64,000 nt of DNA from assembly GCF_003385955.1 (NCBI RefSeq), contig NZ_QRDW01000002.1, positions 310,001 through 374,000 of the forward strand, written 5' to 3'. A program made the position numbers and the translations under genes. The stretch comes from Aestuariispira insulae. GTDB lineage: Bacteria; Pseudomonadota; Alphaproteobacteria; UBA8366; Aestuariispiraceae. Shown here in pieces: positions 7,207-60,248 of this stretch; the stretch's first letter is position 1, and every line of letters begins with the position of its first letter. The notes under the pieces were generated by a model. The model worked only from the letters and a program-made list of their open reading frames with translations. It made no database searches and had not been told where the DNA came from.

Positions 7207-7343
7207 GATCATGTCCTTAACTTGCAGGAATTCTGTCCGGCAAGGCGGATGGAACCGATCACGGCGCTGATGGAAAAATATGCGTTCGTAAAGTGCCATT
7301 CTGCCCTCCCGGAACACCCCGTCCGGTTGAAGTTATAAATGTA

Positions 7344-7535
7344 ATGGCAGGTCTCCTGGCTCACGGGTCTGATGCTTCCTACCCTCCTTCCCAGCCAATT
7401 TCCGGCCAGTGGATTGCGGGCAGGCGCTCGCCGTTCACAGTTGCGGGGGCAGCCATGGTTTTGGTCCCTGATGGGTACGCCTCACCATGTTCCCTTTTCA
7501 TCCGCCTTCGCCGTCTGGCCCGGCGGAACCATCGG
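7344..7535 (-). promoter_or_regulatory. Cobalamin (adenosylcobalamin) riboswitch
   Basis: Read on the minus strand, the conserved blocks of the cobalamin riboswitch occur in order: GGGAACATGGTG, then GCTGCCCCCGCAACTGT, CCACTG, GGGAAGG, and the B12 box AGCCAGGAGACCTGCC (7346-7361) at the 3' side. This is a textbook match. The boundaries are approximate because the P1 stem is not precisely set. It ends about 140 bases before the btuF start. Known members fold around adenosylcobalamin and then block translation or transcription of import or synthesis genes. The stretch from 7207 to 7709 otherwise holds only the expression platform and the flagellin leader. Confidence 0.95.
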
Positions 7536-7709
7536 CAGGGTAGATAGCATGTGGTTCATTCCGGCTCAATCGCAATTTGGCTGATCCGGAAGAGAGCGGG
7601 CAATGCTTGGGCATTTTCCCTTGATGTGCTAACATATGCAGTTGAGAGAGAAGTAACGTCTCGGGGACGGCCAGAAAGGGTGTTCCCGGTTCCAGAACGG
7701 AGAGAGACG

Positions 7710-15086: not shown

Positions 15087-16661
15087 ATGAGCGATGCGGA
15101 AACAGAAGGTCGGGGGCGGCGTGGTCGTGGCGGACGGGGTGCAGGCGGAGGCGGTCGTGCCGCGCGTCAGGCATCCAGATCCGGCGGCGCAAAGGCGTTC
15201 AAACCTTACATTTCCCGCGGCATCGGTTATTTCGAGCCGTTCAACGAAGAGCATCTCGCCACAATCGAATATAACGCCGATACCGTTTTGCAGGAAATCG
15301 GTATCGAGTTCCGTGACGATCCGGAAACGCTGGAGATCTGGAAAGAGGCAGGTGCCGACGTCCAGGGTGAACGTGTGCGTTTTGAACGCGGCATGCTGCG
15401 CCAGATCATCCAGAAGACCGCGCCTTCCGTCATTACCCAGCATGCGCGCAACCCTGCCCGCACCGTAAAGATCGGTGAAGGCAATTCGGTTCTGGTGCCG
15501 GCCTATGGTTCACCTTTCATCCGCAACCTGGATGAAGGCCGCCGCTATGCGACCATTGAGGATTTCCGCAATTTCGTGAAGCTGGCTTACATGAGCCCCG
15601 GTCTGCACCATTCCGGAGGCACCGTTTGTGAGCCGGTCGACCTGCCGGTGAATAAACGCCATCTGGATATGAACCTCACCCATATGACCCTGTCCGACAA
15701 GCCGTTCATGGGCTCTGTCACGGCGCCGGAACGCGCCCAGGACACGGTTGATATGTGTAAAATCCTGTTCGGGGATGAGTTTGTCGACCAGAACTGTGTT
15801 GTCATCAACCTGATCAACGCCAACTCGCCGATGATTTTCGACGATACCATGCTGGGCGCGTTGAAGGTTTATGCGCGCAATAACCAGGCTTGTGTGATTT
15901 CGCCATTCATCCTGTCGGGTGCCATGAGCCCTGTGACCGTTGCCGGTACGCTGACCCAGATCTTTGCCGAGGCTCAGGCCGGGATGGCCCTGACCCAGCT
16001 GGTGCGCCCGGGCGCACCGGTGGTGTTTGGTACCTTTGCGTCCTCCATCTCCATGCAGTCCGGTGCACCGACCTTCGGCACCCCGGAACCTTCCTTGGTG
16101 CTCTATGGCGCTGGCCAGCTGGCGCGCCGTTTGGGTGTGCCGTTCCGCTCCGGCGGCGGCCTGAATGCCTCCAAGACCCCGGATGCGCAGGCGGCCTATG
16201 AAGCGGCGAACACATTGCAGACCGCAGCGCTGGGCGGCGTGAACTTCATGCTGCACACAGCTGGTTGGTGTGAAGGCGGTTTGGCCATGTCTTATGAGAA
16301 ATTCGTTATGGATGCCGATCAGGCTGCCATGATGGGGCGTCTGCTGGAAGGTCCGGACATGTCCGAGAACGGCCAGGCGATGGATGCGTTGCGTGAAGTT
16401 GGTCCGGGTAACCATTTCCTGGGTTGTGCTCATACCCAGGCAAACTTTGAAAATGCCTTCTACCGGTCACCGCTGGCGGACAATAACTCGTTCGAACAGT
16501 GGGAATCCGAAGGTTCCAAGACCATGGAAGAGCGTGCCAACGAATATTACAAAAAGCTGCTCAACCAATATGAAGCGCCGGCCATCGACGAGGGCGTCAA
16601 AGAAGCCCTGGAAGAATATGTGGCCAAGAAAAAAGAAAGCATGCCGGACGCCAACTACTGA
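15087..16661 (+). CDS. Trimethylamine methyltransferase (MttB) family protein, non-pyrrolysine
   Basis: 524 aa. After a Gly/Arg-rich tail of about 30 residues the protein is a full-length MttB-superfamily TIM barrel (GIGYFEPFNEEHLATIEYNADTVL, then EDFRNFVKLAYMSPGLHHSGG). True MttB reads an in-frame UAG as pyrrolysine. This gene has no internal stop, so it belongs to the large non-Pyl group, of which characterised members demethylate glycine betaine or related quaternary amines and pass the methyl group to a corrinoid protein. No corrinoid protein or MtbA/RamA partner is encoded nearby. The B12 importer 8 kb away fits a cobalamin-using cell. A GGAGG-type site precedes the ATG and a strong terminator follows. 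Confidence 0.85.
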   Translation: MSDAETEGRGRRGRGGRGAGGGGRAARQASRSGGAKAFKPYISRGIGYFEPFNEEHLATIEYNADTVLQEIGIEFRDDPETLEIWKEAGADVQGERVRFERGMLRQIIQKTAPSVITQHARNPARTVKIGEGNSVLVPAYGSPFIRNLDEGRRYATIEDFRNFVKLAYMSPGLHHSGGTVCEPVDLPVNKRHLDMNLTHMTLSDKPFMGSVTAPERAQDTVDMCKILFGDEFVDQNCVVINLINANSPMIFDDTMLGALKVYARNNQACVISPFILSGAMSPVTVAGTLTQIFAEAQAGMALTQLVRPGAPVVFGTFASSISMQSGAPTFGTPEPSLVLYGAGQLARRLGVPFRSGGGLNASKTPDAQAAYEAANTLQTAALGGVNFMLHTAGWCEGGLAMSYEKFVMDADQAAMMGRLLEGPDMSENGQAMDALREVGPGNHFLGCAHTQANFENAFYRSPLADNNSFEQWESEGSKTMEERANEYYKKLLNQYEAPAIDEGVKEALEEYVAKKKESMPDANY

Positions 16662-52813: not shown

Positions 52814-53737
52814 ATGGACAAGATCGGGGAACTTACGGTATTTGCGAAAGTGGTGGATGAAGGAGGGTTTTCTGCGGCGGCCCGGGCGATGAACCTGACG
52901 CCAAGCGCGGTCAGTAAACAGATCGGGCGCCTGGAAGACCGTCTGGGCACCCGTTTGCTAAACCGCACCACGCGCTCTCTCAGCCTGACCCCGGAAGGCC
53001 GTAATTTCTACGACCGCTGCACCCGAATTCTCACCGACATTGATGATGCCGAAGCCGAGGTGACCCAGGCCCATGATTCGCCGCGCGGTGTTTTGCGCAT
53101 CAGCTGCGGCGTGGCGTTTGGCCGCCATCAGGTCAGCCCCCTGGTACCGGAATTCCTGGAACGTTATCCGGATGTCCAGGTGGAGATGACCCTGACCGAT
53201 TCCGTGGTTGATCTGGTAGAGCAGGGGATTGACCTGGCGGTGCGCTTTGGCGAGCTGCGCGATTCCAGCCTGATCGCCCGTTTCCTTGCGCGGTCCAAGC
53301 GCGCGATCTGTGCCTCCCCGGAATATCTGGCGAAGCATGGCATCCCCCAGACCCCGCAGGACCTGCATGATCATAACTGCCTGTTTTTCTCCAACCTGCC
53401 GCATCTGAATGAATGGATCTTCAAAATGCCGGATGGGGAATTTGCCTTCCAGCCGCAGGGGAATTTCTGCGCCAATAATGGCGAAACCATCCATGAAATG
53501 GTGTTGCACGGCCTGGGCATTGCCCGTCTGGCGGAATTCCTGGTCTCACCGGATGTGCGCGATGGCAAGCTGGAACGGATCCTGACCGATTATTACCGGG
53601 ACATCACCGTACCGATCCATGCGCTCTATCCCACCAGGCGCCATCTCTCGCCCAAATTGCGAGCCTTCCTGGATTTTCTGGTCGAGAAGTTTTCGCCGAT
53701 CCCGCCCTGGGAAATGGAACCCGGCAGCCGAAGCTGA
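52814..53737 (+). CDS. LysR-family transcriptional regulator
   Basis: 307 aa. The N-terminal winged helix is typical: GELTVFAKVVDEGGFSAAARAMNLTPSAVSKQIGRLEDRLGTRLLNRTTRSLSLTPEG. The effector domain (about 90-295) includes RGVLRISCGVAFGRHQVSPLVPEFLERYPDVQVEM and EQGIDLAVRFGEL, as in the CrgA/AaeR-like LysR subgroup that often controls quinone, aromatic or organic acid genes. It is divergent from the 70-aa gene. No metabolic operon lies next to it, so its target is unknown. Confidence 0.9.
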   Translation: MDKIGELTVFAKVVDEGGFSAAARAMNLTPSAVSKQIGRLEDRLGTRLLNRTTRSLSLTPEGRNFYDRCTRILTDIDDAEAEVTQAHDSPRGVLRISCGVAFGRHQVSPLVPEFLERYPDVQVEMTLTDSVVDLVEQGIDLAVRFGELRDSSLIARFLARSKRAICASPEYLAKHGIPQTPQDLHDHNCLFFSNLPHLNEWIFKMPDGEFAFQPQGNFCANNGETIHEMVLHGLGIARLAEFLVSPDVRDGKLERILTDYYRDITVPIHALYPTRRHLSPKLRAFLDFLVEKFSPIPPWEMEPGSRS

Positions 53738-53766
53738 TCCTTGTTCTCTGCAAGTATAATCGTTGG

Positions 53767-53804
53767 AAAAAAAAGAAATCCCGGAAACCGTTTGGTTTCC
53801 GGGA
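53767..53804 (-). terminator. Minus-strand intrinsic terminator with no protein gene upstream
   Basis: TCCCGGAAACC-gttt-GGTTTCCGGGA (53779-53804) has perfect 11-base arms. On the minus strand TTTCTTTTTTTT follows. On the plus strand only AGTTTG follows, so the element is oriented for a minus-strand transcript; it may still partly stop the LysR message. Confidence 0.8.
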
Positions 53805-53848
53805 AGTTTGATGGGTTAGGACAGAAAGTGGGCTTCCCAACGCTGTCG
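53767..53848 (-). ncRNA. Candidate FNR-activated small RNA upstream of suf operon
   Basis: On the minus strand, an FNR-like box (53883-53896) is followed after exactly 22 bases by a -10 element TAATCT (53860-53855). That places the box centre at -41.5 from a start near 53848, the class II FNR position. About 45 bases of unpaired sequence follow, then a perfect 11-base-arm terminator with a run of eight T. No minus-strand protein gene uses this terminator. The predicted RNA is about 80 nt. It is a prediction from promoter and terminator geometry only; no homology to a known RNA is claimed. Confidence 0.45.
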
Positions 53849-53882
53849 AGAATGAGATTAGCGCCCATCAGCCGCGCCGCAA

Positions 53883-53896
53883 TTGATGCAGGTCAA
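53883..53896. promoter_or_regulatory. FNR/CRP-family box
   Basis: TTGATGCAGGTCAA (minus strand TTGACCTGCATCAA) matches the FNR consensus TTGAT-N4-ATCAA at 9 of 10 specified positions. It is 147 bases upstream of the suf regulator start and 22 bases from a minus-strand -10. It could control either side. Confidence 0.6.
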
Positions 53897-53979
53897 GCCA
53901 GACCAAAAAACTTCTCTTTTTGTTAAAAATTTTTGAGCGATCCGCCCCTGCGGCGGTTTGTCCGGGGTGAAATTTATCC

Positions 53980-54007
53980 TTGAATTGGCGCTGAAAAGCA
54001 GTAAATA
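53980..54007 (+). promoter_or_regulatory. Possible suf operon promoter
   Basis: TTGAAT, a 16-base spacer and TAAATA lie 37-64 bases before the rrf2 start codon. The hexamers match the sigma-70 consensus moderately. It is the best candidate in the leader. Confidence 0.35.
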
Positions 54008-54043
54008 CACAATCAGGACCAAAATGGTACGGTTTAGGATTCC

Positions 54044-54508
54044 ATGTTCAGACTGAGCAAACTGACAGATTACGGATTTGTGCTGCTGGCCCATATGACC
54101 GGCCGTGCTGGCGAAACCGTGACCGCGCCCGAACTGGCGGAAGCAACCGCATTGCCGCAGCCGACCGTGGCCAAGACACTGAAAGCGCTGGCAAAGGCCG
54201 GTGTTGTGGTCTCCCATCGCGGGGTGGGCGGCGGCTACAGTCTGGACCGGGCACCGGATGATATTTCCGTGGCCGAGATAATATCCGCTATGGAAGGGCC
54301 GGTGGCACTGACCGCCTGTGTGGAAGGGGCCGAGCATCAATGTGATGTGGAAAGTTGCTGCCCCATGCGCGGGCATTGGGATTCCATCAACCATGCGGTC
54401 AAAACGGCATTGGAAGGGATCTCGCTTGCCGATGTCTCGTCCAAAAATAACGTGCCGGATTTTATAAATATGGATCAACCTGCGCCGTCTTTTGCGCAGG
54501 GCAGCTAA
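54044..54508 (+). CDS. Rrf2-family SUF system regulator
   Basis: 154 aa. Rrf2 winged helix (MFRLSKLTDYGFVLLAHMTG, PELAEATALPQPTVAKTLKALAKAGVVVSHRGVGGGYSL). The cluster-binding region ACVEGAEHQCDVESCCPMRG holds the spaced cysteines expected of an IscR/SufR-like Fe-S sensor. As the first gene of the suf operon it fits the alphaproteobacterial SUF-type regulator, which represses the operon when Fe-S clusters are sufficient. The next gene follows after 18 bases. Confidence 0.9.
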   Translation: MFRLSKLTDYGFVLLAHMTGRAGETVTAPELAEATALPQPTVAKTLKALAKAGVVVSHRGVGGGYSLDRAPDDISVAEIISAMEGPVALTACVEGAEHQCDVESCCPMRGHWDSINHAVKTALEGISLADVSSKNNVPDFINMDQPAPSFAQGS

Positions 54509-59807: not shown

Positions 59808-59900
59808 TCGGGGATGATCGGGCAATTGCGATCGGCGGGTCGGACACCCATATATAGAAAAGACCGATCCGATGGGTTTGAAGTTAGGAGAGTGAATTCG

Positions 59901-60248
59901 ATGTTCGGAACAGGTGCTCCCATATTGACGCTGACGGATGCCGCGGCCGATCGGGTGCGGGAACTTATGGATCAGGGCGATAACGAGGTGCTGGGCCTGC
60001 GTGTCGGTGTGTCCTCGAAGGGCTGTTCGGGGCTTTCCTATGTGGTGGAATATGCCAAGGAACAAAAACAGTTCGAAGAAGTGGTCGAAGATAAAGGGGT
60101 TCGCATCTTTGTTGATCCGGCGGCGGTCATGTTCATCATCGGCTCGCAGATGGATTATGTGGAAAGCAAACTGGATTCTCGCTTTACCTTCTCCAATCCC
60201 AATGAAACAGCTAGGTGTGGTTGCGGCGAAAGTTTCAGTACACAGTGA
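59901..60248 (+). CDS. sufA: A-type Fe-S carrier protein SufA/IscA
   Basis: 115 aa from the ATG at 59901, where AGGAG lies eleven bases ahead; the longer frame from 59814 is not supported. HesB/IscA family: LTLTDAAADRVRELMDQG, VSSKGCSGLSYVVEYA (first cysteine), and the C-terminal NETARCGCGESFS with the CxC motif. Together these three cysteines hold a [2Fe-2S] or [4Fe-4S] cluster for delivery to apoproteins. It is the last gene of the operon, followed by a terminator. Confidence 0.93.
   Translation: MFGTGAPILTLTDAAADRVRELMDQGDNEVLGLRVGVSSKGCSGLSYVVEYAKEQKQFEEVVEDKGVRIFVDPAAVMFIIGSQMDYVESKLDSRFTFSNPNETARCGCGESFSTQ

Follow-up and report, generated by a model that had tools for sequence, protein, structure and literature searches.

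A predicted small RNA gene with an FNR-type promoter beside the suf operon of Aestuariispira insulae, conserved in a second genus

Does the gap in front of the suf operon of Aestuariispira insulae hold a small RNA gene that is switched on by FNR? In the 64,000-nt stretch of DNA analysed here (the window), this gap is bordered by a LysR-family regulator gene (52814..53737, plus strand) and by the Rrf2-family SUF regulator gene (54044..54508, plus strand; TIGR02944 above cut-off), which is the first gene of the suf operon. A sequence-only reading of the window had seen no minus-strand gene between them, and the minus-strand ORFs in the gap are indeed merely mechanical. The middle genes of the operon bear names that we presume from their sequences, and the cluster ends in an A-type Fe-S carrier gene (59901..60248, plus strand; TIGR00049 above cut-off) whose score to the SufA model lies below that model's cut-off. 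By eye, the suf promoter is predicted as TTGAAT-16-TAAATA (53980-54007), with TTGAAA and TACATA as its counterpart in a relative of the same family and another genus (G001 below). Directly before the start of the suf regulator, and overlapping the predicted suf leader, lies AGGACCAAAATGGTACGGTTTAGG (54015-54038), which is largely kept in G001 and partly in Curvivirga (by eye) and is, from its sequence, likely an Rrf2-type operator.

The minus strand of the gap carries, base for base as the sequence-only reading had described them, the elements of a promoter. A palindromic FNR-type box, TTGACCTGCATCAA (53883..53896, centre 53889.5), matches TTGAT-N4-ATCAA at 9 of 10 positions, and is followed by a 22-nt spacer (53861..53882) and, exactly 22 nt past the box, by the -10 element TAATCT (53855..53860), so that the box is centred at -41.5 from the predicted start. 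This is the layout of a class II promoter (a box near consensus, a centre near -41.5 and about 22 nt to the -10 element), with the start itself placed at 53848 (+/-2) from the geometry, at the point where the conserved core described below begins. The strand of the promoter elements and of the terminator sets transcription of the predicted sRNA, of about 82 nt (53767..53848, minus strand), leftward, convergent with the LysR gene and divergent from the suf operon. Its predicted fold opens with a 5' hairpin (53820..53847, minus strand), GACAG...CUGUC with inner UGGG/CCCA, and continues with a single-stranded conserved segment, CUAACCCAUC (53810..53819, minus strand), which lies between the two hairpins and is the candidate seed. 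An intrinsic terminator stem-loop of 11 perfect pairs and a 4-nt loop (53779..53804, minus strand) comes next, and TTTC separates its stem from a run of eight T (53767..53774) that marks the RNA end. The earlier placement of this terminator, about 45 bases past the start, holds as well, the distance from 53848 to the stem being 44 nt. Against shuffles the fold has z = -5.5, mostly owed to the terminator. By itself, without the other elements, the FNR box is not significant: TTGAYNNNNRTCAA occurs once in the 64-kb window against 0.29 expected, and at least once in 25 of 100 shuffles. Two pieces of the window genome, of 450 kb and 800 kb, contain 31 boxes of at least 9/10, 5 of them intergenic by our own gene calls.

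We take the sRNA gene to be real because both the geometry and the core are conserved in G001, that is, in another genus. This genome supplied the match found in a search of 59 genomes, a match limited to the predicted RNA body, and its locus lies between an orthologous LysR gene (87% identical) and an orthologous suf operon; among the 110 suf-regulator loci searched, the LysR ortholog is present only there. The G001 box, TTGATATGAATCAA, matches TTGAT-N4-ATCAA at 10 of 10 positions and is identical to the window box at 11 of 14, and the distance to the -10 element (TAGATT in G001) is exactly 22 nt, as it is at a nap-like operon of the window genome. The spacers of the two loci, equal in length, agree at 3 of 22 positions, and the 40 bp upstream of the box at 12 of 40. 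Over the 49 columns that surround and follow the start, 43 of 47 aligned positions are identical, with one 2-nt insertion, and from the predicted +1 on the figure is 38 of 39 bases, plus that insertion. The 5' hairpin retains 8 of its 9 pairs unchanged and the remaining one as a wobble (U-A to U-G), and the candidate seed is unpaired and identical in both genomes. Of the 11 pairs of the terminator stem, 5 are changed on both sides yet still paired, 5 are unchanged and 1 is broken (counted by script on ungapped 26-mers, since MAFFT shifted the stem by one base).

Judging by the unrelated spacer, sites that are free of selection seem saturated between these genomes, so that the box, its distance from the -10 element, the core and the stem all look selected, in what is a single comparison between the two sequences that carry the RNA. 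Judged on these sequences, the pattern is that of a promoter, an RNA and a terminator rather than of a peptide, and at the sequence level the locus is a stand-alone unit with its own terminator and U-tail, conserved in two genera. Very probably, the sRNA gene is real and under an FNR-type switch; to the fuller reading, a stand-alone, FNR-type-controlled small regulatory RNA gene that would be induced by FNR at low oxygen and would pair with mRNA leaders, we assign a probability of roughly 0.77.

In each of the two genomes there is a gene for an FNR-like protein that has a CxxC-x7-C motif plus another cysteine (by eye). The best NCBIfam match of the one in the window genome is FnrL, at 171.6 bits against a cut-off of 300 bits, and it falls under the cut-offs of both FnrL and Fnr, which lends something to the alternative that the sRNA is real and its box is used by another activator of the CRP/FNR family (FixK-like or NnrR/DNR-like), in response to nitric oxide, nitrate or some other signal. 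The same alternative draws on the number of candidate proteins, with 14 HTH_Crp_2 matches at E <=0.001 in the window genome and 15 in G001 (5 and 9 over the cut-off), and on the window half-site TTGAC, which departs from the FNR consensus. However, the box in G001 follows TTGAT-N4-ATCAA without a mismatch, and the protein with the cysteine motif is there in both genomes. We regard control by such another activator as unlikely, and FNR dependence of the predicted sRNA as likely.

The box might instead serve the plus-strand suf promoter, with the minus-strand elements coincidental or secondary: it is a palindrome, the suf operon is concerned with Fe-S clusters, and boxes occur before suf regulators where the sRNA core is lacking. 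Within up to 600 bp upstream (some loci being shorter), boxes of at least 9/10 were found at 3 of 80 named suf-regulator loci. In Curvivirga aplysinae the suf regulator is preceded at 81 bp by a 10/10 box, TTGATTTATATCAA, without the core, and in Kiloniella spongiae at 186 bp by a 9/10 box, where both the core and a TAnnnT at 22 nt are absent; at a further locus (L095) a 9/10 box lies 248 bp upstream, again with the core absent. The Curvivirga box, which may be an older FNR site or mark a diverged RNA, is followed on the minus strand by a hairpin that has no T-run. Yet measured from the suf promoter the box centre would lie near -125 (window) and near -155 (G001), a distance that is neither constant nor usual for FNR, whereas the minus-strand spacing to the -10 element is exactly 22 in both genomes. 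On the plus strand, 20-24 nt from the box, hexamers with A2 and T6 are absent from the window, and the only one in G001 is GACTTT (2/6). Because the minus-strand spacing is constant and the distance to the suf promoter is not, we take the box to serve the sRNA, and consider service to the suf promoter instead to be improbable.

Conservation of DNA is by itself strandless, and the LysR gene adjoins the conserved block in both genomes, so the block could in principle be a plus-strand element, such as a long leader of suf or a structure in the LysR 3' UTR; read on the plus strand, the single broken pair of the terminator would be G-U. However, T-runs past the hairpin stand on the minus strand only, in both genomes (by eye), conservation begins at the predicted minus-strand start, and the changed core pair (U-A to U-G) is kept on the minus strand only, which together make a plus-strand element highly improbable. 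That the block encodes a short peptide is scarcely credible: mechanical minus-strand ORFs do overlap it, and one frame is stop-free in both species, but the 2-nt insertion falls inside the core, in its most conserved part, and shifts the frame, so that a conserved peptide is unlikely, the peptides differ beyond that point and no shared start codon was seen.

How often such elements meet by accident was gauged with a scan for boxes of at least 9/10, with the outer TTG and CAA obligatory, that are followed by TAnnnT at 21-23 nt. Since 3 such pairs were seen in 2.05 Mb (parts of both genomes) against about 2 expected, the pair of box and -10 element is not in excess, and first-order Markov sequence yielded 10 pairs per 10.2 Mb, about one per megabase. 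None of these 10 simulated pairs had a terminator beside it, by a routine that does not bridge a mismatch and therefore overlooks the terminator of G001 too. The possibility that box, -10 element and terminator lined up by chance, for which the frequency of the simpler pairs speaks, is next to negligible in view of the identical geometry across an unrelated spacer in a second genus and of the absence of the three-part combination from the 10.2 Mb simulated. The 3 pairs observed are the sRNA locus in each genome and the nap-like operon of the window genome. The latter site (C2:134338-134351, outside the window; L148) reads TTGATGTGCGTCAA, then 22 nt, then TAATTT, 5' of nap-like genes that we take to be a small ORF, a gene for a ferredoxin-type protein and a NapD-like gene, the last about 870 bp downstream of the box. 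From its sequence, it is likely a class II FNR promoter of periplasmic nitrate reductase.

The stand-alone, FNR-type-controlled sRNA appears to be narrowly distributed. With a covariance model of the core, the window genome scores 72.5 bits and G001 76.7 bits, and none of the remaining 383 of the 385 class genomes exceeds 22.6 bits, under filters that may lose weak matches. These searches over genomes, run with Infernal's stricter filters, by which weak matches are lost, returned matches in 5 of the 385 class genomes at E 0.1 and in 7 of 43 genomes of the order at E 1, both counts including the window genome and G001. Around the weak hits, nine in number (L039-L047, none above 22.6 bits), no box of at least 8/10 was found in about 290 bases each, and with the filters off the model gave at most 9.5 bits at six loci of relatives. 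The 41 remaining genomes of the order, including 12 from the same family, yielded no convincing copy of the RNA. A 16-base core pattern with one mismatch allowed matched in 3 of the 43 order genomes, and the third of these matches (G013, L006) was rejected as lying within a long coding frame. The core pattern had no match in the genome_contigs and viral_contigs collections, which evidently lack the G001 locus and perhaps the window genome, and the plasmid collection held no match to the RNA. The box-to-terminator geometry, whose presence in relatives the sequence-only reading had made its touchstone, is thus kept in G001, and a wider spread through the Alphaproteobacteria was not found: the sRNA is lineage-specific, detected in two genera only.

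FNR-controlled sRNAs have been described in enteric bacteria. The closest in working mode, by analogy, is FnrS of Escherichia coli and its relatives, which, as summarized in the available part of PMC8139620, depends on FNR and represses mRNAs of functions that are dispensable without oxygen. The RNA predicted here would share FNR-type control with FnrS, but it lies at another location, in another bacterial class, and it does not match the FnrS family of Rfam, nor does any other Rfam family attain its gathering score here; the sequence-only reading, too, saw no sequence likeness to FnrS. At E <=5 the interval 53700-54050 returns just a pair of unrelated weak matches, each scoring far under its cut-off. 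Elsewhere in the window, Rfam identifies a cobalamin riboswitch (7329-7548, minus strand; 122 bits) and a PYLIS_3 match (16161-16260, plus strand; 40 bits against a cut-off of 38), the latter probably coding-sequence homology rather than a pyrrolysine insertion element, because it lies inside an uninterrupted 524-aa ORF (15087-16661).

Low oxygen also induces the alphaproteobacterial sRNA PcrZ of Rhodobacter sphaeroides, which according to the same portion of PMC8139620 is controlled by PrrA, with a possibly indirect part for FnrL; PrrA control sets it apart from the RNA predicted here. RyhB, in the sections of PMC5040110 and PMC11475020 that deal with it, controls the isc operon and erpA, and thus acts on Fe-S assembly and on the mRNA of an A-type carrier, as would the RNA predicted here, for which a carrier target is predicted in one species; unlike this RNA, with its FNR-type control, RyhB is controlled by Fur. 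Antisense promoters are described for the isc-suf operon of Rhodobacter in the accessible text of PMC6956336, where a distinct small RNA from P4 could not be verified by Northern blot and P5 drives a protein gene; they resemble our locus in minus-strand transcription beside the suf regulator gene, which is predicted here. FnrL did not turn up as a term in the main text of that paper. Among the matches listed, within open-access literature, we noticed no directly FNR-controlled sRNA of Alphaproteobacteria and found no description of the sRNA reported here.

What the RNA would do can be sketched from its single-stranded segment. At low oxygen, 4Fe-4S FNR, acting as a class II activator, would occupy the box and turn the RNA on, and the RNA would then pair with mRNA leaders through UCCUAACCC, a stretch of the single-stranded segment that is complementary to Shine-Dalgarno sequences of the AGGA type, probably with the help of Hfq, and lower their translation. 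Hfq is encoded in both the window genome and G001. Leaders were ranked for pairing with the unpaired segment of the sRNA, using genes called by our own script: 1,194 leaders of 1,195 called genes in 1.25 of the 4.82 Mb of the window genome, and all 713 of 713 called genes in 0.8 of the 4.36 Mb of G001. This ranking put the leader of the A-type carrier of the suf cluster first among the 1,194 of the window genome by accessibility-corrected energy (-16.8 kcal/mol, with the runner-up at -13.6 kcal/mol, a lead of 3.2 kcal/mol), and third by raw duplex energy. The candidate pairing site, GGGUUUGAAGUUAGGAGAGU (59874..59893, plus strand), lies over the carrier Shine-Dalgarno sequence, where GUUAGGA is paired, and a second block of 7 bp adds to the duplex.

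In G001, however, the leader of the orthologous carrier ranks 105th of 713 by corrected energy and 290th of 713 by raw energy, and because of this poor rank the prediction is not independently confirmed. Shuffled seeds paired with the carrier equally well in 15 of 1000 cases in the window genome, 384 of 1000 in G001 and 30 of 1000 for the summed energies, and with UCCU kept in the shuffles these figures are 22, 403 and 56 of 1000. Among 148 ortholog pairs the carrier pair has the best summed energy, to which the window genome contributes most. The carrier gene is therefore best described as a candidate target, predicted in one species and not supported in G001.

The leader of the suf regulator, in which GGUUUAGGA had been spotted by eye, was rejected as a target on its unremarkable ranks in both genomes (225th of 1,194 corrected and about 322nd raw in the window genome; 484th of 713 raw in G001, where the start, missed by the gene caller, was corrected by hand). 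Over whole genomes, the perfect 9-mer complement of the seed has 11 sites in the window genome and 10 in G001, each count including the sRNA itself, fewer than the 61 and 30 of a reversed 9-mer control, and a 12-base degenerate complement has 5 sites in each, again including the sRNA itself. By eye, no orthologous gene starts share a perfect 9-base site between the two genomes, and none are found among the 12-base degenerate sites. Two nearly identical copies of a block (...acaccggtcactccGGGTTAGGActggattgggttgcc...) occur in G001 around position 1500 of L263 and L271, possibly a repeated element that holds the complement of the sRNA seed.

The link between the sRNA and Fe-S assembly is suggested by location and by this one target prediction. 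An FNR-controlled sRNA acting on Fe-S assembly has a precedent, because FnrS affects iscR, upon which FnrS and OxyS have opposite effects through the iscR leader, as stated in the available part of PMC11475020. The most speculative step of the proposed mechanism makes the carrier of the suf cluster one of the targets, so that FNR would trim Fe-S delivery at low oxygen. FNR is itself an Fe-S protein. That an sRNA made under FNR covers the Shine-Dalgarno sequence of the carrier, and so cuts cluster delivery when Fe-S clusters are intact and oxygen is scarce, is in our estimate unlikely; if true, an Fe-S sensor and the Fe-S supply would be joined in a feedback loop that involves neither Fur nor RyhB. 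The comparison also illustrates that two genomes can suffice to bring an sRNA to light, by way of a spacer that keeps its length but not its sequence, a core that is conserved and a terminator that has been rewritten, and the locus provides a compact, well-delimited and conserved case beside suf that makes oxygen-dependent RNA control of the Fe-S supply directly testable in Alphaproteobacteria.
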